Assembly (NCBI GenBank): GCA_020722095.1
Contig: DYLM01000006.1
Location: forward strand, 1 to 51,125
From: Chloroherpeton thalassium
Lineage (GTDB): Bacteria; Bacteroidota; Ignavibacteria; Kapaibacteriales; UBA2268
DNA: 51,125 bases
Reading direction: 5' to 3'
The notes under the pieces are model-generated. The model saw only the letters and a program-made list of their open reading frames with translations. It was not told where the DNA came from and did no database searches. The position numbers and the translations under genes were made by a program. Positions 10,864 through 24,130 of this stretch are shown piece by piece. The number at the start of each line of letters is the position of its first letter. Position 1 is the stretch's first letter.

Positions 10864-10883
10864 ATACCACAACAAGGTAGTAT
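10864..10883. promoter_or_regulatory. Putative Rrf2/NsrR operator, autoregulatory copy
   Basis: ATACCAC-AACAAG-GTAGTAT is an inverted repeat with 7-base arms (one mismatch). It is nearly identical to the site at 11333-11352 and ends four bases before the regulator's ATG, overlapping its weak AAGG ribosome-binding site. Binding here could block initiation of transcription or its progress, giving autoregulation. It does not resemble the E. coli NsrR site, so the assignment rests on the shared position and sequence. Confidence 0.65.
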
Positions 10884-10887
10884 ATTA

Positions 10888-11316
10888 ATGAATTTATCAA
10901 ACACAGCAGAATACGCAATTAGAATTTTAACATTTATGGCGGTCAAAAAACTCGATATTTATACTGCTAAATACCTTATTGAACAGCTTAATATCTCGGA
11001 TAAGTACCTAAGAAGAATAATGACAAACCTTACAAAAGTCGGCTTAATTCGTAGTATTCAGGGGCGTGATGGTGGCTATGTTTTTAATGATAACCCCGAA
11101 AACATTAATTTAATGCAGATAATTGATGCAGTTGATGATATGGACAAATATATGGGTTGTGTTTTGGGATTTAAAGAATGTTCAGATTCAAATCCTTGCG
11201 TTTTACATTCGCAATGGGCAATAATAAGAAATCAAATATTCGATTTATTTAAAAAGACAAATTTATTAGAAGTGTCCGAAGATATGTTTTTAAAATTAGA
11301 GAAAATTAAATTTTAA
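10888..11316 (+). CDS. nsrR: Rrf2-family iron-sulfur transcriptional regulator, NsrR-like
   Basis: This is a predicted dimeric winged-helix repressor whose Fe-S cluster senses nitric oxide. The 142 residues begin with MNLSNTAEYAIRILTFMA, typical of Rrf2 proteins. A helix-turn-helix region follows (about 26-60: TAKYLIEQLNISDKYLRRIM) with the wing GRDGGYVF. Three cysteines in the cluster loop (CVLGFKECSDSNPC, C-x6-C-x5-C near residues 91-104) match the NsrR arrangement, with slightly different spacing from E. coli. It lies immediately upstream of the NO reductase gene, and the two share a near-identical inverted repeat. The specific name NsrR, rather than another Rrf2 member such as IscR, is inferred from the norZ context. 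Confidence 0.85.
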   Translation: MNLSNTAEYAIRILTFMAVKKLDIYTAKYLIEQLNISDKYLRRIMTNLTKVGLIRSIQGRDGGYVFNDNPENINLMQIIDAVDDMDKYMGCVLGFKECSDSNPCVLHSQWAIIRNQIFDLFKKTNLLEVSEDMFLKLEKIKF

Positions 11317-11332
11317 ATTTTTTTACAATAAA

Positions 11333-11352
11333 ATACTACAACAAAGTAGTAT
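11333..11352. promoter_or_regulatory. Putative Rrf2/NsrR operator upstream of norZ
   Basis: ATACTAC-AACAAA-GTAGTAT has perfect 7-base arms and matches the site at 10864-10883 in 18 of 20 positions. It lies in the 62-base gap between the regulator and the NO reductase, 26 bases before the reductase ATG. A separate site here suggests that norZ has its own regulated promoter as well as any read-through from nsrR. Confidence 0.7.
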
Positions 11353-11378
11353 TTAAATTAAATAAAAAAGGAGTATTT

Positions 11379-13598
11379 ATGAACAAAAGTTTACTCGACA
11401 AATTTATGAGCCATAAAGGCTTATACACAAGTTTCTGGATAATTGCATTGTTTATGGTGACGATGCTAATTTATTACACAGCAAACTTACAGAAAGAAGT
11501 TCCTCCAATTCCTAAAACTGTAACTTCAGTTAGCGGAGAAGTACTTTACACTTACGATGACGTAGTAGCAGGAAAAGGTTATTTCCAACAATTCGACCTT
11601 ATGGATTGGGGTACATTGCTTGGAATGGGAGCATATATGGGACCTGACTTTTCTACTGACTTTATGCACCACAGAACAGAATTTTTGTATGATTTTTATG
11701 CAAATGAATTATATGGAAAGACAAATAATGGTTTAACAAAAGTTGAACGCGCTGCAGTTAAAGAAAGAGTTAAGCAAGACATTAAGCAACAAACTAAATT
11801 ACTCGAAGAAACTACTACTTATACTGATGCATCTGCAGTTGCTTACCACAGAAATGTAGAGTACTTGGTTAAATTATTGGTAGAAGGCGACCCAAGTCGT
11901 GCTTTCCCAGGTGGAGTTATCCACCCAGATGAAGCTGAAAAGATCGCTTCATTTGTGGATTGGTCTCAATTAGTGGCTTCCTCACTTAGACCGGGAACAA
12001 ATAGAACTTGGTCGAATAACTGGCCCCCAGAACCTCTTTTAGACCAAGATGTTAGGTTTAATTCTCATAAAATTTCACTTTGGGAGTTTTTAATCCTTTG
12101 GACATTAACAATTTTTGTTATATTCCTTTCTTATGAATATTTATTAAAGAAAGATGACCCAAGTGAACTTCAACCTGCCATTAAAATTACAAGCTTATTC
12201 AAATCGCAAGCTAAATTACTGAAATATATTCCAATTGTAGCTGCACTATTTGTTGTTCAATTGATTATTGGTGGATATTTGGCTCACCTTTACACAGAAC
12301 CAACAAAAGATTTCTTGCTTTCGCAGAACTTATTACCATTTAACGTTTTAAGATCATTGCACACTCAAATCGCAATTTTATGGGTTGCAGTGGGTTGGTT
12401 AGTTGGTGGTTTATTGATTGCTCCTTGGGTAGCTAATAAAGACCACAAATACCCATGGCTTGTGGATGTATTGTGGGCAGCATTAGTTGTTGTAGCAGTT
12501 GGTAGTGTTATTGGTTTATATATGGGAGCAACTGGACAATTACGTGAAACTTGGTTCTGGTTGGGTAACGAAGGACGTGAATTAGTTAATTTAGGTAGAA
12601 TTTGGGATATTGGACTTGTCATCGGGCTTGTTTTCTGGTTCTTACTGATTATTTCCTTAATCAGAAAAGCTGCAACAAATAACCCAATTGTATCCACAAT
12701 TATTTGGTCTGCTTTTGCTATTGCAACTTTATACATTGCTGGTATGATGCCAATTCATAAAATTATGCCAAACTTTACAGTTGATGATTACTATCGTTGG
12801 TGGGTAATTCACTTATGGGTAGAATTAACATTCGAACTATTTGCAGCTGGCGTGATTGCATTCTTTACAGTATCGTTAGGATTAATTTCGCAAAAAACTG
12901 CAGTAAAAGTTATGCTTTTCGAATTATTCTTAATTATGTTGAGCGGAACTCTTGGAGTAGGGCACCATTACTGGTGGCAAGGTTTAGATGAATATTGGAT
13001 TGCTATTGGTGGAATTTTCTCTGCATTAGAACCACTTCCATTGGCATTAATGATTGTAGAAGCATGGAAAAACCATCGAGAAAAAGTACATAGTGGCGAC
13101 AATAACGAATTTGGTGTGCCATTTATGTGGATTGCAGGTTCTGCAGCTTTGAATTGGATAGGTGCAGGTTTCTTTGGTATGTTAATCAACACACCAACAA
13201 TTAGCTATTATTCACACGGAACATATTTGATTATGCCTCACGGACACGTTGCATTGTTAGGTGCATTTGGCTATATCTCAATTGCTTTCTTGTATATGAC
13301 TTCACGGGCAAACTCATTAGCTAAAGGCTTAGAATGGAACGCGAAACTTAGTAAGTATGGCTTTTGGTTATTAACAATTGGTGCTTTGTTATTTACAATT
13401 CCAACATATATTATTGGTATTGAACAAACAAGAATCGCACACGACTTGGGATATTATTACACTCGTTTAAGAGGTGCAGTTCAACCAATGTCGGGCTGGA
13501 TGTGGTTTAGAATATTACCTGACACATTGATGATTCTTGGTGGTATAGTTGTTCTTTACGATTTAGTACAAAAAACATTCTTAGCTAAAAAGAAATAA
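11379..13598 (+). CDS. norZ: Quinol-dependent nitric oxide reductase (qNOR)
   Basis: This is an inner-membrane enzyme that reduces two NO to N2O using quinol. The 739 residues are normal for single-subunit qNOR, with the NorC-like extension fused in front of the NorB core. An N-terminal membrane helix (about 14-36) precedes a periplasmic domain that lacks a CxxCH motif, as expected for qNOR. About twelve further helices follow. Haem and FeB ligand histidines are visible in RSLHTQIAILW, WWVIHLWVELTFE, GVGHHYWW and MPHGHVALLGAFGY, and the catalytic-region glutamates in HLWVELTFELFA and SALEPLPL. AAGGAG lies well placed before the ATG. The operator at 11333-11352 lies just upstream. The role could be detoxification or denitrification. 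No nitrite or nitrous-oxide reductase is present in the window, so detoxification is favoured. Confidence 0.95.
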   Translation: MNKSLLDKFMSHKGLYTSFWIIALFMVTMLIYYTANLQKEVPPIPKTVTSVSGEVLYTYDDVVAGKGYFQQFDLMDWGTLLGMGAYMGPDFSTDFMHHRTEFLYDFYANELYGKTNNGLTKVERAAVKERVKQDIKQQTKLLEETTTYTDASAVAYHRNVEYLVKLLVEGDPSRAFPGGVIHPDEAEKIASFVDWSQLVASSLRPGTNRTWSNNWPPEPLLDQDVRFNSHKISLWEFLILWTLTIFVIFLSYEYLLKKDDPSELQPAIKITSLFKSQAKLLKYIPIVAALFVVQLIIGGYLAHLYTEPTKDFLLSQNLLPFNVLRSLHTQIAILWVAVGWLVGGLLIAPWVANKDHKYPWLVDVLWAALVVVAVGSVIGLYMGATGQLRETWFWLGNEGRELVNLGRIWDIGLVIGLVFWFLLIISLIRKAATNNPIVSTIIWSAFAIATLYIAGMMPIHKIMPNFTVDDYYRWWVIHLWVELTFELFAAGVIAFFTVSLGLISQKTAVKVMLFELFLIMLSGTLGVGHHYWWQGLDEYWIAIGGIFSALEPLPLALMIVEAWKNHREKVHSGDNNEFGVPFMWIAGSAALNWIGAGFFGMLINTPTISYYSHGTYLIMPHGHVALLGAFGYISIAFLYMTSRANSLAKGLEWNAKLSKYGFWLLTIGALLFTIPTYIIGIEQTRIAHDLGYYYTRLRGAVQPMSGWMWFRILPDTLMILGGIVVLYDLVQKTFLAKKK

Positions 13599-13673
13599 TG
13601 TTTGAATAAAATTTATAAATTGCAGATTAGCAATTAAAATAAATTTTCGTTCTTAAACTTATATCAATTTTGG

Positions 13674-13806
13674 AGAGGCTGTCTCATAAGTCAGTTTTGC
13701 TGTCATTCCCACGAAAGTGGGAATCCATAAATCCTCTATAGTAGTTGATTCCCGTTTGCACGGGAATGACAATTTTGAAATATTTTGGACTTATGAGACA
13801 GCCTCT
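13674..13806. repeat. Complete MITE-like palindromic element (133 bp)
   Basis: AGAGGCTGTCTCATAAGTC (13674-13692) and its exact reverse complement (13788-13806) form 19-base terminal inverted repeats. Inside, TGTCATTCCC and GGGAATGACA also pair. Two perfect hairpins lie in the middle: ATTCCCAC-gaaa-GTGGGAAT (13705-13724) and ATTCCCGT-ttgc-ACGGGAAT (13748-13767). The folded form is a long stem with two arms. It fills most of the 318-base gap between norZ and the next gene. There is no coding content. Confidence 0.85.
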
Positions 13807-13916
13807 TCAAATTATTTTAGAATTAATAAAGTCTATAACAAATAAAATTTTCAATATTCAAATTTTGTTTTTAGATTTTATTAATCCTATAAATAAAAAA
13901 TAAAAGAGATTTTTTT

Positions 13917-15815
13917 ATGAAAAATATATATAAAGTAAACGAAGAATGTGTAGCTTGTAGAGCATGCGTAGAAGTCGCTCCCAATAATTTTGACATTGCT
14001 GATAATGGATTGGCTTTTGTTTACAAGCAACCAGAAAATGCCCAAGAAATCGCAAATTCAAACGAAGCAATGGAAGTATGTCCAGTTAGTGCAATTAGCA
14101 AAAAAGTTGTTGATAATTTATTAGAAAATATCAACTCTCCTATTTTTGCAAATTCAAATATCAAAGAAACCTTGGATAAACATCCAGAACTTAAGTCAGT
14201 TTTGGTAAATTATTCAGATAAGTTCAAAAAATTACTAAATCCAGTAATGTATAATACAGTTGCAAAATTTGCAACTTTCAATGATGCCGCAAGAGTTACT
14301 AAACTTTCGATTTGTGAAATTTTACATACTTTGAATGATTATTTGGGAACTACACAGGAATTATTACGCATCGCTCCTGATTGTATCCGTAGCAATCAAA
14401 TTGAAATACTTGTTGGCGAAACAATTAGTTGGGCAGAATCTCACGAAAGATATATTTACAATATCAACACAATGTCCGAAATTATACAAAAAATAACCGA
14501 ATTAAAGCCTCAAGAAAACATTGTATTAATTTCCACAGAATCGCCAGACGAAATAATCAACATCTGCAAAGGCTTAAATTTCAAATTCAATATTGAAAAT
14601 AATAGAGAATATCGAGTTAGTATATTCAATCCAAATAACGATAATGTATCTGATGATTGGCAAAGCAGAATGGAAGATTTTGAAGTATTAGACGTTCGGA
14701 CAATGAAAACAGATCCTTTCGACATCATAATTCAAAAGGCTTACCAATTGCAAGAAGGACAAGGCTTTAAACTAATTCAACGCTTTGAGCCAATCCCGAT
14801 TATGAATATGCTATCAGAAATGGGCTATGAATACGTATCAAAGAAAGTTGCTCAAAATGAATATCACGTTTATTTCCATAAAATTCCAGTCATTGAAGAT
14901 TCAATTGAGATATCAAACAAAACTGAACTTGTTATACAATCGGCAACTCCCGTTGCCTATCCTGTTATTATGCGATTACTTCAATCAGAAATTATTCGGA
15001 AATCAGTTAAAATAAAAGAATTAAAAGTTTGGGAAGAAACCGAAAAACACTTAGCTTGGATAAACAATGGAAAAGCAGATATTAGTTTTTCGGCATTAAT
15101 TACATCTGTAAAATTACAAAAAATCGACATAAAAATTCCTGCAATTTTTGTTTGGGATAATTTTGTTTTACTAACACGATATCCAATAAAAAGTTTAGAG
15201 GATATAAAAGGCAAAGTCATTCATACTCCTTTGTTCGAAGAAGCTCCACCTACAAAAATAACAAAGTATTTGATTAAAGCATTAGGAATGAATCCCGATG
15301 AATTTACATTTTCATACGGGAAACCTTTTGGAAGACCTGATGAAATTTTCAATGAATTTGTCACTGGTAAAGCAGATACAGTTATTCTTAGGGAGCCCGA
15401 AGCAAGTTATGCAATTAAATCACTTCGCGACAGAAAACTTCCTTTTTCCGCAATAAATTACAATGAGATTTGGAACGAAGTAAATCCTGGCTTCGGTAGT
15501 TTCCCAAATGCAGGTATTGTATTCAAAGGTGAATTTGTTCGTCAGAATCCCGAATTAGCAAGAGTATTTTTAGATGAATTAAAGAAAGCAATAGGATGGG
15601 TGAATACTAATAAAGATGAGTCTGCAAATCTTTCCTTTGATATGATGCGTCAAACCCCAGATAAAGTTCGCTTATTCTTGGATAGAGTTAATTTTACATA
15701 TTCCGAGGGAGCAGAATTAGTCGAAAAAGTGAAATCTTACTTTGAGGTTCTAACAGCACAAAATATTATTGATACAAAAATTGAAGATTCATTTTATAAT
15801 ATTTTTGAGTTATAA
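13917..15815 (+). CDS. Ferredoxin-DUF1858-DUF2249-substrate-binding-fold fusion protein
   Basis: This is a cytosolic 632-residue multidomain protein with no signal peptide. Residues 1-60 are a single-cluster ferredoxin domain with C11, C14, C17 and C55-P (CVACRAC...VCPVSAI). Residues about 82-145 match DUF1858, the fold also found at the N-terminus of ScdA-type iron-sulfur repair proteins (LDKHPELKSVLVNY, LNPVMYNTVAKFATFNDAA). Residues about 254-320 match DUF2249 (EVLDVRTMKTDPF, RFEPIPIMNMLSEMGYEY). Residues about 335-600 look like an NMT1/THI5-type periplasmic binding protein fold (PVAYPVIMRLL, GKADISFSALI, IKSLEDIKGKVI, FVTGKADTVILREPEA). Position behind nsrR-norZ suggests a role in NO stress, electron transfer or Fe-S repair. 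The ligand is unknown. The ATG at 13917 is the only sensible start. The PepSY-type gene follows after 14 bases. Confidence 0.75.
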   Translation: MKNIYKVNEECVACRACVEVAPNNFDIADNGLAFVYKQPENAQEIANSNEAMEVCPVSAISKKVVDNLLENINSPIFANSNIKETLDKHPELKSVLVNYSDKFKKLLNPVMYNTVAKFATFNDAARVTKLSICEILHTLNDYLGTTQELLRIAPDCIRSNQIEILVGETISWAESHERYIYNINTMSEIIQKITELKPQENIVLISTESPDEIINICKGLNFKFNIENNREYRVSIFNPNNDNVSDDWQSRMEDFEVLDVRTMKTDPFDIIIQKAYQLQEGQGFKLIQRFEPIPIMNMLSEMGYEYVSKKVAQNEYHVYFHKIPVIEDSIEISNKTELVIQSATPVAYPVIMRLLQSEIIRKSVKIKELKVWEETEKHLAWINNGKADISFSALITSVKLQKIDIKIPAIFVWDNFVLLTRYPIKSLEDIKGKVIHTPLFEEAPPTKITKYLIKALGMNPDEFTFSYGKPFGRPDEIFNEFVTGKADTVILREPEASYAIKSLRDRKLPFSAINYNEIWNEVNPGFGSFPNAGIVFKGEFVRQNPELARVFLDELKKAIGWVNTNKDESANLSFDMMRQTPDKVRLFLDRVNFTYSEGAELVEKVKSYFEVLTAQNIIDTKIEDSFYNIFEL

Positions 15816-15829
15816 ACAGATAATTACCT

Positions 15830-17344
15830 ATGTTAAAATTCCTTCGCAAATACCATAAATGGTTAAGTATTATTATTTCTTTTTTTGTAATTTTATTTGT
15901 AATTTCTGGAATAGTATTAAATCACCGTCAAACATTCTCATTTTGGGATATTAACCGCAATTTGCTCCCAAAAGATTATCGTTATAAAAATTGGAACAAT
16001 GCTTCGGTTAAATCCACTCTTAAATTATCTAATGATAGCATATTAATTTATGGAAATATTGGAATTTGGCTTACTGATTCAACCTTTTCCAAGTTTATTG
16101 ATTTCAATAAAGGTTTCAGAAATGGAATTGACAATAGAAAAATTTGTACAATGACTTTAACGAGCAAAAACCGTGTATTGGCAGGGACATTCTTTGGATT
16201 GTTTGAATTTATTCGCTATAAGCAAAAATGGACGAAAATCGACCTACCTACCAAAGAAAGCCGTGTAGTTGATTTGCTTAATATACAAGATACTACTTAT
16301 GTGATGACTCGATCTTTCTTGTTCCGAACAACTGACTTTGTGAAATTTGAAAAAGTTAATATCCCACCTCCAGTCAATTATGATAATAAAATTGGATTAT
16401 TCAAAACATTCTGGGTTATTCATAGCGGCGAAATTTATGGTTTGCCGGGTAAATTGATAGTTGATGCAGCAGGCTTGATATTTGCATTTCTAACGATAAC
16501 GGGAATAATTCTATTTATCAATAAATACTTAATCAAAAAGAAGGATTTAGTAGAAGAGAAAAAAAAGAAAATCGTAAAATCTTCCAAATGGCATTTAAAA
16601 TGGCATAATAAAATTGGCTGGATTACAGTTGCTTTGCTTATTATCAATACTTTTACGGGAATGTTCCTGCGTCCTCCGTTCTTGATTACCATTGCAAATT
16701 CGCGAGTAAATAAAATTCCATTTACCGAACTTGCTACCTCAAATCCATATTTTGATGCGTTAAGGCAAATTTCTTATGATGAAGGAAATAATGTCTTTCT
16801 TCTGGCAACAAATGACGGAATATTTTATTCTGATGATAATTTCCAAACTCCACTAAAAACATTTGCAAATCAGCCACCTATCAGTGTGATGGGAATAAAT
16901 GTGTTCAAACGAATCACAACCAATTTGTATTTGGTTGGCTCATTCGAAGGTTTGTATTTGTGGAATTATACAACAGGCGAAGTTTATGATTATATCCGCA
17001 ACGAAGTAGCAGTTAAGAAAACCGATAATGGCAGACCGATTGGGGAGTTTATGATAGGTGGTTTTACAGATGATTTTTTAAATCAAGAGATTGCTTTCGA
17101 GTATAATCAAGGCGCAGGAAATCTTACTTCTGACATACCTTTCCCAGAAATGCCAAAGGAAATAATTGAGAAATCGCCAATGTCAATGTGGAATTTTGCA
17201 TTAGAAGTGCATACAGGAAGAATATTCGAACCATTAATTGGTGATTTCTACATTTTAGTAGTACCAATCGTAGGAATATTTGTTTTATTCATTTTGATTT
17301 CAGGCTTTGTTGTGTGGTTTGTGCAATTCAGAAGAAAGCATTAG
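15830..17344 (+). CDS. PepSY-associated membrane protein with internal duplication
   Basis: The 504-residue inner-membrane protein has four predicted helices (about 12-34, 207-232, 260-282 and 475-500). This is the layout of PepSY_TM/ferric-reductase-like proteins. Histidines near helix ends (RKYHKWLS, LNHRQ, VIHSGEIYGLPGK, KWHNKIGW, EVHTGRIFEP) could bind haem. The two halves look duplicated: H-x-W-L/I plus helix, a large outer segment, then H-S/T-G-x-I plus helix. The outer segments contain blade-like strands (SILIYGNIGIWLTD, NVFLLATNDGIFYSDD, NLYLVGSFEGLYLWN) suggestive of beta-propeller pieces instead of typical PepSY domains. It follows the ferredoxin fusion by 14 bases and probably acts with it. 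Its stop overlaps the convergent helicase stop by four bases. The electron-transfer function is inferred. Confidence 0.75.
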   Translation: MLKFLRKYHKWLSIIISFFVILFVISGIVLNHRQTFSFWDINRNLLPKDYRYKNWNNASVKSTLKLSNDSILIYGNIGIWLTDSTFSKFIDFNKGFRNGIDNRKICTMTLTSKNRVLAGTFFGLFEFIRYKQKWTKIDLPTKESRVVDLLNIQDTTYVMTRSFLFRTTDFVKFEKVNIPPPVNYDNKIGLFKTFWVIHSGEIYGLPGKLIVDAAGLIFAFLTITGIILFINKYLIKKKDLVEEKKKKIVKSSKWHLKWHNKIGWITVALLIINTFTGMFLRPPFLITIANSRVNKIPFTELATSNPYFDALRQISYDEGNNVFLLATNDGIFYSDDNFQTPLKTFANQPPISVMGINVFKRITTNLYLVGSFEGLYLWNYTTGEVYDYIRNEVAVKKTDNGRPIGEFMIGGFTDDFLNQEIAFEYNQGAGNLTSDIPFPEMPKEIIEKSPMSMWNFALEVHTGRIFEPLIGDFYILVVPIVGIFVLFILISGFVVWFVQFRRKH

Positions 17345-19068
17345 GAAGATTCGTACATTTTCTTTATAATCTCAAAAAGTTTCTTGTTTTTTGATCCATA
17401 TTTTGCAATTGCTCGGAAAACGATGGAGCCTTCCTGATACATTTTTGCATATATTTTATGTTGTAATAACTTTTGAAATTCATCAAATTTGACTACAACT
17501 TTAGGATTATTAATGGGCAATGAAATGCTTTGAATATTCTTTTCTATTTGATAAGCAGCTTTTTCTGAACTTTCTTGGTCATTTGATATTTGCGTTCTCT
17601 CTCCTTCATTTTTTATGTTTGTTTTGAGAAATTTAAGTCTATTTTTTGTTCTTGTTACTGCCACATAAAGAATGTTTATCTCTTCGTTAATTTTAGCAAA
17701 ATTTACATTTTTTCTCTTATGAATGTCTTTTACATCGCTTTCTTTTATGAAATCATTTGCAAGTTCAACTGAATCATATTCCATACCTTTTGCCTTATGA
17801 AGTGTAGTAAATATCATAGAAGCATTATTTTTATGAGAAATGTCGGGAATACTTTTCTTTTTTAAAAAAGCAAGGATTTTATTTAAATGTTTTCCATATT
17901 TCTTAACCAAATCTGTAAAATTTGATAAATTTGTGTCGCTTGCCTTTTTATTATAATTTGCCAACTCACCGAAAGTACCAAAATTTCTTATAAAATTAGA
18001 TTTTATCAAATATCTTTTATCTGCATAAAGATTTTGAATATCATTAAGCAGGCTGTTCTCTTCCAGAAAGAAAGCATTACTATTGCCACCTTCAAAGAAA
18101 ATTCTAGTATCTTTTGAACTTTTTCTGGCAAATTCTAATGCATTATCAATCATTTCTAGATTTGTTCTTGCTATCAAAGCTTTTACTTTTGTAGATTTTG
18201 AATTTCCACTTCCAATTACAGATATTTTGTAATCGTTATTTATATACTTCTTCCAATTGATAATTCGTACCGCCAAATCCGCAATATCCTGATTAAACCT
18301 AAAACTTTGAGTTAAATAAAATTGTTGGAAATCAATATTCTGGAGCATATTTACTGCATATCTCCAACTATAAATTTGTTGATTAACATCTCCAGTAATT
18401 ATTTTGGTTGCTTTTTGATTATTGACAATATCCCAAATTACAGGCGATGCGTCCTGACCTTCGTCAAAACAAATAAAGTCATAATTTAGTTTTGGTTTAT
18501 GTAATTGATATTGTTTTAAATAAAAATCGTGAGTTATTTGAATTCCACCATCTTTCATTAATTGAAAAAATAAATCTGCTAAGTAATAAATATAATCGTA
18601 ATATTCATTTACAAAATTTAACGACTCATTTTCAAATATTATCTTTATTAGGTCTAAATCTTCAATCTTTTCTACATTGCTATTATAAAAATAATCTATT
18701 AGCTTTAATGTATAATGAGCAATTAGATATTTATCAATAACTTTATTTTTATTGCTTTCAATATTTAACAATTTTGGTAATTCATAAGGAGAATATGACT
18801 TTAATGTAGTATTGTAAATATTCTGACTATGATATGCTAACGAATGAGCAGTATGAACATCAACATTAGTTATGCCCTGCTTAATTAATTTGGCTTTGGC
18901 TTCTTCCTTTACAGATTTATTGTAAGCTAAATATAGTATTTTGCTTGATTTTGAGTGAGTTTTAATATATTCTAAGATAGTTGTTGTTTTTCCAGAACCA
19001 GCAACAGCATTAACTTTAATATTCCCTGAGGAATTTATGATATGCAGTTGCTCGTCTGTTAAGTTCAT
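17341..19068 (-). CDS. Superfamily I (UvrD/Rep-type) DNA helicase, Fbh1-like
   Basis: This is a predicted ATP-dependent 3'-5' DNA helicase. Motifs run in order: Q-motif and Walker A (NLTDEQLHIIN, VNAVAGSGKTTTI), Walker B FDEGQDASP (about residue 204), motif III GDVNQQIYSWRYA, motif V TTLHKAKGMEYDSV and motif VI LYVAVTRTKNRL. The AYNKSVKEEA and DVHTAHSLAY strings after Walker A resemble Fbh1-type helicases more than classical UvrD or PcrA. At about 575 residues it is compact and lacks large 1B/2B inserts and any nuclease domain. A TTG at 19095 is also in frame; I prefer the ATG at 19068, which puts the Q-motif at the N-terminus. It lies alone between convergent and same-strand neighbours with no partner gene. 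A repair or recombination role is likely, and defence is possible but unsupported. Confidence 0.88.
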   Translation of the reverse strand: MNLTDEQLHIINSSGNIKVNAVAGSGKTTTILEYIKTHSKSSKILYLAYNKSVKEEAKAKLIKQGITNVDVHTAHSLAYHSQNIYNTTLKSYSPYELPKLLNIESNKNKVIDKYLIAHYTLKLIDYFYNSNVEKIEDLDLIKIIFENESLNFVNEYYDYIYYLADLFFQLMKDGGIQITHDFYLKQYQLHKPKLNYDFICFDEGQDASPVIWDIVNNQKATKIITGDVNQQIYSWRYAVNMLQNIDFQQFYLTQSFRFNQDIADLAVRIINWKKYINNDYKISVIGSGNSKSTKVKALIARTNLEMIDNALEFARKSSKDTRIFFEGGNSNAFFLEENSLLNDIQNLYADKRYLIKSNFIRNFGTFGELANYNKKASDTNLSNFTDLVKKYGKHLNKILAFLKKKSIPDISHKNNASMIFTTLHKAKGMEYDSVELANDFIKESDVKDIHKRKNVNFAKINEEINILYVAVTRTKNRLKFLKTNIKNEGERTQISNDQESSEKAAYQIEKNIQSISLPINNPKVVVKFDEFQKLLQHKIYAKMYQEGSIVFRAIAKYGSKNKKLFEIIKKMYESS

Positions 19069-19114
19069 CGAATTATTTAAATTTGAAAAATTCAAAATTA
19101 TAAATAATTTCTCT

Positions 19115-22100
19115 TTATTCCACTATTATCATACTTTTTGTTTGATTAATATGATTTGTCCTTAAAATGTAATAATACATTCCTGTAGGAAGCCCTTCGT
19201 TGACCAATTTAATTGAATAATTGCCAATTTTAAATGGCTTATTAATGAAAATACTTTTTACTAACACCCCACTAATTGAATAAATTTCAAGTGTAGCATT
19301 TGTTTTTTCGGATATAGAGAATTTTATCTCAGTTTCATAATTCCAAGGATTTGGATTGTTCTGTCCTAAACTGGGCATCACTCCAGTATATTGCAATGTA
19401 GATAATCCACATTTTCCATTTGAAATTAAATATGTCGAATCCGATAGCGGAACCAAATCCAAAAACATCACCGAATCTGTTGAAAATTCATCAATTAGTA
19501 ATGAAATTTTACTGAAATTTGTATCAGGAATTGTTGATAGAAAATCAATTTCAAATAATTTGCCTTTTGCTAATTGTTTGGAATTGTCAAACTTAATACT
19601 TATACTTCCCGGTGTGTAAGTGTTGGTAAATTTAGCATCAACAAAATTACGCACATCCAACATTTCCAAAGCAAAAGCATTATAATAAAGATTCATTGAA
19701 AACGACAAATCTTCTAACCATATTGTTTGCCCTTGCAAAGTAGTGTTAATATCCTTATCCAAATAAATCGGTATTGTAATTGTATCTCCTAATTGAGTAA
19801 TGAGCGAGTCGGGTATTGTGAAAGAATTTTTCGTATCAAATCCAATTTCATATCTCGGTGCATATCCAATACCAGTAAGTAAGTTGGAATCAAGAACCTG
19901 ACAAGGACTTGCCGCAATCGTTTGAATAAATTGATTGAAAGTAGCAGATTTTCGTGGACAGAATTTAAGAGTAACTGATAATGTATCGCCAACCATAAGT
20001 GTATCTGTTAGATTTGGCACAGAACTAACATAGAATAATTCATTATTCAAATTAAGCAAAGAAAACAAACTTAATGGCACATCGCCAGTATTATGCAAAA
20101 ATACTGTTCGCTCTACGCAATCAAGTACTTTGACTGAATCAAAATCAGCCGAGGAAACAGCAGTGAGTTCAGGCTTCTGTATTATCACACGAGCAAAATC
20201 GTTTTCAGCAATGATATGGTACATTATTATTTCTTCTGTATCAAAATGTATGCTATCTAAAGTAATTACCAAAGAATCTCTATCATTTATTCTTGGTTTG
20301 AAATATGCAGTAAAAATTGGTCTTAGGGAATCCACATAGCAAGCATTTTTAAGTAAAAATTCACTCCCACCAAATTCGGAATAATTATGCTTCAAAAATG
20401 GTGTATAAGACTTACATTGTGGGATTAAATAATCACTTTCCGAATACAAATACTCTAATTTTGTAGTATCATAGCCAATTCTGCAATCAATATCCACAAT
20501 ATCAGCTGGAATTGCTCTACTTGTATAAATAGGAATGGCAAGTGTATCGCAAGGCACAATGCGGAATGTATCTAATGCACTTGTATTATTGAATGTAAAG
20601 CTCAAACCATAAGCCGGTGCAAAGCCCGAACCCGACAAAATAAGAGTTGTATCAATAAAATTACAAGGGTCAGAAATGGATATTTTCAATTTATTTTCGT
20701 AATATCTTACTGCTCTTGGCTTGAATTCCAATCGTAAAGTGAGAATATTATTGGTATCAACAAAGAGTGGTAAGTTGCCACCCAATGAATCATAAGCATA
20801 AAAAACTCTTTCATTCGGTTCAAAAGTGATGTCAGTAATTGTCACTTTTGCTTGTTGAGGATTGAACTCAAGTGCTGGAATACGGAGATGAATAAATTGA
20901 GGTGTTGAAACAGTATCCACCCGTGTTGGCGGAAATATAATTCTCTTTGCGTCATATTCATAAACCAATGTTTGTTTGCCTGCTAAATAAGAAGTGTAAG
21001 TATTTTCCCAGCCGCTTCCTTTTGCTTGAAGAAATAATCTGGCATCATTATCAATTATCGTAGCATCCATTTCATTTCTTGGGCAGAACTTTATATACAA
21101 AGTATCTGTGCTTCTTGGGGGAATTTTATAAGGCACAATACCATCTGGTGAGTAATGAGAATACCAAGAATAAAATTCAGGTTTGGGATTTGTAACATTG
21201 ATTGAATCAATCCAAACGCTATCAATATCCATATCAAAATAAAATGAATTATTGATTAGTGGAATTGACCGAACTTGGCAATCGCAAGGACGAACAAATC
21301 CGTAAGTAATAACTTTTAAAGGCACATCAAGAGGAACGATAATGCCATTTCCTGTCAAATATGATGATACACTGATTGGGCAAGGTGCTAATGAATTTAC
21401 AGTAAAATATCCCTTATACTCTTTGCTTTCAGTTGGTTTGAATGCAATTATTACTTGAATTGTGTCCTTTGGTTTTAACTTTATATTATTAAAATCAGTT
21501 GGATAAATTAATTCAAAGCCAGGAGAAATTGTATAATTATTTATTATAATGTCGTAATTAGAAATATTTTCTAAATGCAAAGTATCATAGAGAACGCCTC
21601 CAACTTCAATTGTTTCATAAGCAATTTCTGATGTTAAATATAATTTAGGAGTAATTGATGTTCCATAAATCTTTGCTGACCATAACTCGCCATCTTCTGT
21701 TTGAAACTCTAAATATGCCCTATCGGCACGGTCAGTTGTATTATCTGCGGGAGTGTATCTAAAACTAAATTGGGCTCGATGATTTGGTTCTAATGTGATT
21801 GAATTTGGCAATGAAGAAGGAGAAATAAGAGTAAATTTATTATTTGCTTGATTTAAAATAAAATTTGAATAAGTCTGTGGAACTGTAGTAATGTTTTCAA
21901 TTTCTAAACTACCATCTTTTGACTGACAACTAATAACATCATTTATTTCAAGAACTTCAGGCATAAATTGCACTCTTTGCACAATTGCTTTGCCTTTAAC
22001 ATAAATGCAATATGATTGCAGACAAGAATTTTCGTACAAACACACTTCGTCAAAAAATGTACCTGATGTAGTTGGCCGGAAAGTTAGCGGGAATGGCTTG

Positions 22101-24130
22101 GTTGCATTGCTTGCAATGGATAAATTCTTTGTTCCCGTCAAGTAAAATGGTTCACCTTTTCTTAAGTATAATGATGCAGTAAGTGATTGGTCGCTTGCAT
22201 TCTTAATATCTACATTCAAAGTTGCCTCTTGCCCAACAATCACAGTACCAAAATCAACTGTATCTACCACAAATTTTATGTCTGCCTCGTAAGAACGTGC
22301 TTTAATATAAATTGGATAATGAATAGTACAATTTTCGGATTTGGCAATAATTACAATGGAATCGTTGAACACACCTTTTTGCTTTGGGAAAAAACGGAAA
22401 TAACTTGGATTATAGCCTGTTTCGGGTTCTAAAATTATCGGAAATTTGAATGATTTTCCAAAGAAATTTGGCGGGATTGTAATGCTCTCAATTGTAATAT
22501 TCTTGTTAGACTTGTTCATCCATTCATACTCAACTGATTCATCGGGCATATCCACACAAGACTGACCAAAATTGAATGAATCCAATCTTTCTTCGCTTCC
22601 TCTTTTCCAAATTACGAGAACTTCATTTACTTTACCATAAATTGGAATTTTCACATCTCCAGCACATTTATCAGTTGATAAAATACGAAGAGTATCATAA
22701 TATGCCATTGTTGTATCACGTGAGTAAAATCTTATTTTTACATCTAAACATTCATTTGGCATTAGCACTTTTGGCAAAGTTGGATAAGTCAATTGAAATA
22801 CTTCGGGCATTTTTAGATTAATACTATTAACAGTGATAGAATTTTTTGAAGTATTGCAAATCTTTAAAGTAGAATCAATGAAAGGTTTTTCTATACATCT
22901 TGCTTTAAGTGAGTCAAACTTCATTTGTAGCGATGACATACTTAATTCTGACTTCCGAGTGATAGAAACTGGCACATTTAAGTGATAATAACCACAACTA
23001 TTATTATTTCTAAATAATAACCTCGTTTTTATTGTTCCAATAAAATCAAGTTTTGCTTTCACTCTAATGGTAACGGGTTGTCCTGGTTGTAAAGGTGTAT
23101 ATCTCCAAGACAATAGTGTTTCTTCCTTTGTCCCATTTAAAAAATAAAATATTGAATTTTTTGCTAAATATCCATCATAATCTAACATCGCAGTTGATGT
23201 TGGACAAAGAGCAGTATCAACAACAGTAAATTCGTATATTTTTTCGGTATCGCAATAAACAGTATCGGTAATAGCAGTGGGCATAACCACAACTTTTCCA
23301 TAATCTTTGCGGTCGGAAGTTACAGTTGATAAGCCAGCCCGCAAAAAACCACTATTATTGTTTGGAGTTGCATCACATAATTTATATATATAACTTGAAT
23401 CATTGCAGCGATAATAAGCATATAAATCCTTTTCTGTTCCTGCCAAAGCCCTATCCTTGTAGCAAATTAAATCATTTTGATTTAAAACTTTGCCCCAAAT
23501 GCGGATTTCATCCATATAACCTTTGTAAGTTCGATTAAGATTTGGGTCGTTGGACAAGGCATTTGTGCTTCCTAATTGCAGTGACAAATCAGGATTATTA
23601 ATTTGCTTGAATGCGTAGTAAGGATATCTGGAATTTCGTGCTGAATCGACAGGATAGGAATTTACATAAATATAAATCCATCCTGTCGAACCATCAGCAA
23701 CAAATGCAAAATGATTCCAATTATCATAATAATTACTAAATGGAATTGATAAACGAGTGTCATCAAGGTTCCCAAGAGTTTCATTTTGACCATTGATATG
23801 GAAAATAAGCGAGTCGTCTGGCGAGATATACACAACCCATGAGTCGTATTTTTCGGTTGCAGGTCCCCACATTCCACCAATATATTGCAGTTTCCCTGAC
23901 TGTCTCTCTGGCTTTAACCACATTTCCAATGTCATATTTTGATTGACTTTTTGACTTAAATTTGTGTTTAAAATATCAATATACTGCGCACCTCTACCTT
24001 GAGTAAGGGTAAATTTAAGCGTTTTGCCAACGCAAGTTCTAACGGTATCGCAAGGTTGATAAGCCTTGGTGGAATTGTAAAACGCAATCATTAAAATTGC
24101 TAATATCAATAGTCTTCTAATTAAAATCAT
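19115..24130 (-). CDS. Giant secreted protein: LamG-like lectin domain, ASH/choice-of-anchor repeats, cohesin-like domains, T9SS sorting domain
   Basis: The 1671-residue protein is predicted to be exported by Sec and then T9SS. A signal peptide occupies residues 1-24. A concanavalin A/LamG-like domain follows (about 45-245: LEMWLKPERQSG, YKGYMDEIRIWGKVL). Several Ig-like ASH/choice-of-anchor D repeats come next, recognisable from patterns such as VDFGTVIVGQEATLNVDIKN and LTLRLEFKPRAVRYYENKL. Two cohesin-like segments near the C-terminal third (from GLSFTFNNTSALDTF and from GFDTKNSFTIPD) follow. The last 85 residues are a type A sorting domain (LGQNNPNPWNYETEIKFSI, ATLEIYSISGVLVKS, GMYYYILRTN). 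It is last in the minus-strand set with DUF1501, DUF1800 and the OmpA protein. A surface or extracellular-matrix role is likely. Ligand and partners cannot be read from sequence. Confidence 0.85.
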   Translation of the reverse strand: MILIRRLLILAILMIAFYNSTKAYQPCDTVRTCVGKTLKFTLTQGRGAQYIDILNTNLSQKVNQNMTLEMWLKPERQSGKLQYIGGMWGPATEKYDSWVVYISPDDSLIFHINGQNETLGNLDDTRLSIPFSNYYDNWNHFAFVADGSTGWIYIYVNSYPVDSARNSRYPYYAFKQINNPDLSLQLGSTNALSNDPNLNRTYKGYMDEIRIWGKVLNQNDLICYKDRALAGTEKDLYAYYRCNDSSYIYKLCDATPNNNSGFLRAGLSTVTSDRKDYGKVVVMPTAITDTVYCDTEKIYEFTVVDTALCPTSTAMLDYDGYLAKNSIFYFLNGTKEETLLSWRYTPLQPGQPVTIRVKAKLDFIGTIKTRLLFRNNNSCGYYHLNVPVSITRKSELSMSSLQMKFDSLKARCIEKPFIDSTLKICNTSKNSITVNSINLKMPEVFQLTYPTLPKVLMPNECLDVKIRFYSRDTTMAYYDTLRILSTDKCAGDVKIPIYGKVNEVLVIWKRGSEERLDSFNFGQSCVDMPDESVEYEWMNKSNKNITIESITIPPNFFGKSFKFPIILEPETGYNPSYFRFFPKQKGVFNDSIVIIAKSENCTIHYPIYIKARSYEADIKFVVDTVDFGTVIVGQEATLNVDIKNASDQSLTASLYLRKGEPFYLTGTKNLSIASNATKPFPLTFRPTTSGTFFDEVCLYENSCLQSYCIYVKGKAIVQRVQFMPEVLEINDVISCQSKDGSLEIENITTVPQTYSNFILNQANNKFTLISPSSLPNSITLEPNHRAQFSFRYTPADNTTDRADRAYLEFQTEDGELWSAKIYGTSITPKLYLTSEIAYETIEVGGVLYDTLHLENISNYDIIINNYTISPGFELIYPTDFNNIKLKPKDTIQVIIAFKPTESKEYKGYFTVNSLAPCPISVSSYLTGNGIIVPLDVPLKVITYGFVRPCDCQVRSIPLINNSFYFDMDIDSVWIDSINVTNPKPEFYSWYSHYSPDGIVPYKIPPRSTDTLYIKFCPRNEMDATIIDNDARLFLQAKGSGWENTYTSYLAGKQTLVYEYDAKRIIFPPTRVDTVSTPQFIHLRIPALEFNPQQAKVTITDITFEPNERVFYAYDSLGGNLPLFVDTNNILTLRLEFKPRAVRYYENKLKISISDPCNFIDTTLILSGSGFAPAYGLSFTFNNTSALDTFRIVPCDTLAIPIYTSRAIPADIVDIDCRIGYDTTKLEYLYSESDYLIPQCKSYTPFLKHNYSEFGGSEFLLKNACYVDSLRPIFTAYFKPRINDRDSLVITLDSIHFDTEEIIMYHIIAENDFARVIIQKPELTAVSSADFDSVKVLDCVERTVFLHNTGDVPLSLFSLLNLNNELFYVSSVPNLTDTLMVGDTLSVTLKFCPRKSATFNQFIQTIAASPCQVLDSNLLTGIGYAPRYEIGFDTKNSFTIPDSLITQLGDTITIPIYLDKDINTTLQGQTIWLEDLSFSMNLYYNAFALEMLDVRNFVDAKFTNTYTPGSISIKFDNSKQLAKGKLFEIDFLSTIPDTNFSKISLLIDEFSTDSVMFLDLVPLSDSTYLISNGKCGLSTLQYTGVMPSLGQNNPNPWNYETEIKFSISEKTNATLEIYSISGVLVKSIFINKPFKIGNYSIKLVNEGLPTGMYYYILRTNHINQTKSMIIVE

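Follow-up and report, generated by a model that had tools for sequence, protein, structure and literature searches.

A candidate nitric oxide-responsive Rrf2 regulon that joins qNOR to a putative ferredoxin-to-heme electron-transfer module in an uncultured bacterium

Why would a bacterium keep genes for a ferredoxin-containing fusion protein and a PepSY_TM-type membrane protein behind those for a nitric oxide (NO) reductase and its regulator? The question is posed by an uncultured organism with Bacteroidota/Chlorobiota-like relatives. A 51,125-nucleotide stretch of its DNA (the window) carries on the plus strand, in this order, genes for an Rrf2-family regulator (10888..11316), a 739-aa quinol-dependent NO reductase, qNOR or NorZ (11379..13598), a 632-aa fusion protein (13917..15815) and a 504-aa PepSY_TM-type protein (15830..17344). 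All four open reading frames, and the 14 bases separating the last two, lie where a first-pass annotation of this DNA had placed them. We found no published description of this gene combination in an incomplete literature search. Sequence comparison gives good support to an NO regulon under Rrf2 control, and we consider the chances about even that it is an NO-responsive one joining qNOR to a ferredoxin-to-heme transmembrane electron-transfer module.

What ties these genes together? The palindrome ATACTAC-N6-GTAGTAT, already reported in that annotation, occurs as ATACCACAACAAGGTAGTAT, with one mismatch, 4 nt ahead of the start codon of rrf2 (10864..10883, no strand) and as a perfect copy, ATACTACAACAAAGTAGTAT, that begins 46 nt before qNOR (11333..11352, no strand). 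With at most one mismatch allowed, no further site occurs anywhere in the 2.46-Mb assembly, the reversed pattern used as control has 0 matches there, and a negative control of 64 loci without rrf2, qNOR or PepSY genes (679 kb) yielded one site of at least 15 bits. Genome uniqueness, zero control matches and the negative control rule out a chance palindrome. Sites with two mismatches at 18793 and 20450 fall inside coding sequence and are taken as chance. Scans for sigma-70 promoters and terminators gave no signal above shuffled sequences.

Is the palindrome kept in relatives? A weight matrix built from six sites was applied to other loci; matrix-independent test sites came from G001, G130, L093, L102 (rrf2), L057 (qNOR) and L089. 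The sister species (G001) has ATACTACAGCAAGGTAGCAT at -24 of rrf2 and ATACTACAACTAAGTAGTAT at -46 of qNOR, and G130, from another family of the class, has ATACTACAAACAAGTAGCAT at rrf2 and ATACTACAACATCGTAGTAT at qNOR; across these two the operator stands at -24 relative to rrf2 and, for qNOR, at -46 or about -65. The sequence AATACTACA-N6-GTAGTAT is invariant 5' of qNOR in five genomes, with variable flanking bases, and in a genome where qNOR is absent from the rrf2 locus and located on another contig (that of L045), two perfect tandem operators precede the unlinked qNOR. Conservation of the palindrome upstream of rrf2 and norZ orthologues, on which the earlier reading depended, is thus borne out. 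Interpretation of the genome-wide scan was limited to perfect sites; with a degenerate pattern and one mismatch, overall forward counts were not above control counts, and wider regulons are therefore not defined by the scan.

The operator also reaches the membrane protein. Three Bacteroidales loci (L057, L068 and L073) have divergent rrf2 and PepSY genes with ATACTACTTTTGTATCGTAT or a similar site 36-42 nt from the PepSY start, linking the PepSY-fusion operon, too, to this regulator. Within the window the fusion gene has no operator immediately in front of it, and the case for its co-regulation here thus depends on read-through or on how orthologous loci are arranged. Of 47 ferredoxin-type fusion homologues, 3 are preceded by a candidate operator: these weak sites lie 56-101 nt ahead of the stand-alone fusion genes of L097, L075 and L071, against a null expectation of about 0.1% at the same threshold.

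What would the regulator sense? Its predicted three-cysteine cluster loop is present as Cys91-X6-Cys98-X5-Cys104; these cysteines are invariant among orthologues, His107 is nearly so, and almost every orthologue has Glu at position 8, as does this protein. In NsrR, Asp8 serves as a cluster ligand (PMC9338935), and by analogy Glu8 is a possible ligand in this protein. The proposal of an NsrR-type NO sensor stands as regards the loop and is weakened by Glu8 in place of Asp8 and by a score of 31 bits against the 182-bit cut-off of the NCBIfam NsrR equivalog model. The regulator falls under every NCBIfam equivalog cut-off, and in profile comparison it is nearer to CymR, RsrR and IscR than to S. 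coelicolor NsrR. Because its score is so far below the NsrR cut-off, we call it NsrR-like in role, not NsrR; its target gene, qNOR, and its family suggest that it senses NO. As in the NsrR regulon (hmp, hcp, norB), an Rrf2 protein with a three-cysteine loop has a palindromic operator at its own gene and an NO reductase as target. The two differ in the operator itself, gATGyAT-N5-ATrCATc for NsrR (PMC1274295) versus ATACTAC-N6-GTAGTAT, and in the fusion/PepSY pair, which belongs to the regulon described here and not to that of NsrR.

The reductase was correctly recognized from the start. Its N-terminal cytochrome-c-like domain, in which CXXCH is absent, is fused to a COX1-type NOR core, as in qNOR (NorZ); Pfam matches NorB_cytochrome_c-like and COX1, and PDB entry 3ayf is matched at E=5e-132. 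Behind it, the spacer to the fusion gene is split by a 134-bp MITE-like insertion (13673..13806, no strand) with terminal inverted repeats GAGGCTGTCTCATAAGTC, which the first-pass annotation had overlooked and which lies outside the system and has 61 BLAST matches in its own genome, partial and reverse-strand ones included. A regulatory role for these repeats is excluded, as they are part of a mobile element that is matched dozens of times across the genome. The element is not present in the sister species, which has an identical gene order and a shorter qNOR-fusion spacer.

Do the last two genes belong to the regulon? Eighty loci were fetched for a survey of gene context, in which MAG labels may carry binning errors. 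PepSY and fusion genes occur together beside rrf2 or qNOR in the orders qNOR-fusion-PepSY, qNOR-PepSY-fusion and rrf2<>PepSY-fusion, and in five MAGs the C-terminus of PepSY continues in one reading frame into the fusion, giving a single protein of 1143-1164 aa. Both genes are rare in the phylum (fusion in 2 of 396 sampled genomes, PepSY homologue in 6), and the qNOR-linked copies occupy several separate positions in the tree. The linkage of the pair to NO genes, claimed from one locus in the first-pass annotation, therefore persists across several arrangements and natural fusions. Together with the operators in relatives, it supports membership of the PepSY-fusion pair in the regulon. Most of the 47 ferredoxin-type homologues analysed lie away from rrf2, qNOR and PepSY, many of the genes standing alone, and the fusion would accordingly work also without qNOR or PepSY. 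PepSY relatives without the fusion occur in G002 and G265. In G002, of the same genus, a diverged Rrf2 gene adjoins the PepSY homologue (C16:303652-305828; L163 5647-7853), and this locus has neither a fusion gene nor an operator match.

The fusion protein is richer than first described: beyond the ferredoxin already noted, it contains DUF2249 and an NMT1/SsuA-type substrate-binding (SBP) fold. All its domains are encoded on the plus strand. A ferredoxin domain for a single [4Fe-4S] cluster (residues 7-61; 13935..14099) is followed by DUF1858 (79-135; 14151..14321), a first SirA/DUF2249-like fold taken from the structure model (178-237; 14448..14627), DUF2249 (257-322; 14685..14882) and the SBP-fold domain, predicted to be cytosolic (336-632; 14922..15812). 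Fer4_13, DUF1858, DUF2249 and NMT1 pass Pfam cut-offs, and the model (mean pLDDT 85, 46 sequences) has two SirA-type folds and the SBP fold. The four ferredoxin cysteines are conserved in homologues. The closest precedent for the middle part is DrpB of Thermus thermophilus, which has the same three domains, DUF1858 and then two DUF2249-like ones, and a similar nitrogen-oxide context; DrpA and DrpB act in Thermus nitrate respiration and are proposed nitrate sensors (PMC6282519). Unlike DrpB, the fusion has an additional ferredoxin at the N-terminus and the SBP-fold domain at the C-terminus. DUF2249 genes are also induced during haloarchaeal denitrification (PMC11218638).

Is the C-terminal domain part of an importer? 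Foldseek places it nearest to the solved folds of Thi5, SsuA and MqnA-type enzymes (E about 1e-13 to 1e-10), the last being entries 7an5-9, which we take to be MqnA. With these cytosolic or periplasmic proteins it has a fold in common at about 15% identity. The SBP of an ABC importer is defined by export and a cognate transporter, a definition that does not cover the fusion: its N-terminus is a ferredoxin, no signal peptide was seen in it, and ABC transporter families are absent among the 25 commonest neighbour families of its homologues. The domain is the most conserved part of the protein, with motifs QSATP, KVWEETEKH, PLF-EAPP, PFGRP and LREPEAS, and this conservation appears to exceed what is expected of an importer subunit.

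The membrane protein scores 71 bits against PF03929 (PepSY_TM), for which the curated cut-off is 28.8. His9, His32, His198, His259 and His461 are invariant in 13 homologues, and equivalents of all five are visible in homologues at 30% identity. These conserved histidines, of the heme-ligand type and at both membrane faces, are predicted heme sites; in the FoxB/CrpH proteins, a four-helix PepSY_TM core likewise carries two-heme histidines at both faces, and such histidines are used for heme (PMC13038864). In sequence the resemblance to FoxB is weak (E=0.04), and the likeness is limited in other ways: the outer part here is propeller-like, matching a beta-propeller of two-component sensor kinases, and the protein is linked to qNOR and in some genomes continues into a cytosolic ferredoxin protein. 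The loop that joins helices 2 and 3 is basic, which places the C-terminus, and with it the junction to the fusion, on the predicted cytosolic side. In a structure search with the model of the fused PepSY-fusion protein, the SBP domain dominated the matches.

How might such a system work? We propose that the Fe-S Rrf2 repressor would bind ATACTAC-N6-GTAGTAT both at the rrf2 promoter and in front of qNOR, and that NO, the signal expected from the family, would damage or nitrosylate its cluster and so lift repression. The reductase would then reduce NO with quinol, and the cell would make a two-part electron-transfer module alongside it. Within this module, the [4Fe-4S] ferredoxin domain of the fusion may pass electrons to a heme on the cytosolic face of the PepSY_TM protein; this protein would carry them across the membrane via two bis-histidine hemes, the heme content and the direction of flow being those we infer. 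Electrons could end in the quinone pool or on an extracytoplasmic acceptor held by the propeller-like domain. A presumed stress-related ligand may be sensed or bound by the fusion's DUF1858/SirA part and SBP-fold domain, which would thereby gate the transfer or else act on that ligand.

The recurrence of the pair in distant bacteria, at times as a single protein, suggests an electron-transfer route against NO that has not been described before. Its most specific form, an NO-induced transmembrane oxidoreductase with a low-potential ferredoxin, a di-heme conduit and gating by an SBP-fold sensor, we hold only tentatively, as somewhat short of an even prospect. If true, a ferredoxin-driven route would sustain NO detoxification when the usual electron supply is poisoned. 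The electron donor of FoxB-type proteins is unknown (PMC13038864; PMC11334425), and a concrete candidate for it is suggested by the naturally fused PepSY-ferredoxin proteins. Genome evidence here connects three poorly understood domains, DUF1858, DUF2249 and PepSY_TM, to NO, and provides, for the many uncultured Bacteroidota and Chlorobiota-like bacteria of sulfidic habitats that make up a large group, an operator and regulon of the NO response that can be tested.

Could the fusion instead be mainly a cytosolic protein for Fe-S or cofactor protection, repair or sulfur transfer under nitrosative stress? The ferredoxin would then power a reaction at a Cys/His site of DUF1858, the SBP fold would bind a small substrate, and the membrane protein would merely recycle electrons. 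Such a site is plausible, as Cys133, His137 and Cys156 (the last just past DUF1858) are invariant in 46 homologues of long and short forms, and SirA/TusA-like folds have known roles in sulfur transfer. The company kept by the homologues also fits: a short form without ferredoxin lies beside Hcp at L100, L101, L105, L106 and L107, with an HcpR-like Crp/Fnr regulator in four of the five, and other neighbours of the fusion are hemerythrin-PAS proteins, MinD/ferredoxin ATPases with FeMo-Co family proteins, and flavin disulfide reductases. In contrast to those Hcp/HcpR loci, the window genome uses Rrf2/qNOR, and Hcp was not found in it. The first-pass annotation had raised "electron transfer or repair", the latter from DUF1858 in ScdA. 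Electron transfer agrees with the ferredoxin cluster and with histidines of the FoxB type; repair as in ScdA/RIC has lost ground, since a Pfam search gave no hemerythrin match in the fusion, whose middle part is arranged as in DrpB. The PepSY fusions that occur naturally in five MAGs further argue for direct membrane electron transfer, and we regard the cytosolic alternative as doubtful.

Still less probable, and in our view unlikely, is that PepSY is a periplasmic metal (iron) reductase that assembles or repairs the heme b3-FeB center of qNOR, with the fusion as cytosolic electron donor. qNOR belongs to the heme-copper oxidoreductase superfamily and has a non-heme iron, and the PepSY and qNOR genes are linked and have a common operator. 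A parallel exists in CrpH, a PepSY_TM protein with essential heme-type histidines that supports heme-copper oxidoreductases and is proposed to act with copper for heme-copper oxidases; CrpH, however, rarely co-occurs with nitrogen-oxide respiration genes (PMC13038864). Against a metal reductase also stand the extracytoplasmic part, which is propeller-like and gave no Pfam match to PepSY domains, and three loci (L084, L102 and G130) where qNOR adjoins the fusion and no PepSY gene was seen. That fusion and PepSY are chance neighbours unconnected to NO, as the lack of an operator of their own in the window and the mobile element behind qNOR might suggest, is very improbable and disfavoured, given linkage that recurs in distant lineages in varied arrangements, the operator upstream of PepSY-fusion in three loci, and the same order without the element in the sister species.

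Two observations lie beside this argument. Downstream of the locus (17341-24130), genes for a UvrD-type helicase and a 1671-aa secreted-type protein, unrelated to it, lie on the opposite strand. A second palindrome, ATACCWAnATnTWGGTAT, is not part of the window, as its counts in the window's own genome equal those of the control. In relatives it occurs 70-95 nt upstream of fusion or PepSY genes (L067, L085, L061, L081, L073, L086 and L055) and also upstream of DUF2249 or DUF1858-DUF2249 (DrpB-like) genes (L187 and L190), and over ten genomes it has 36 sites versus 7 in controls.
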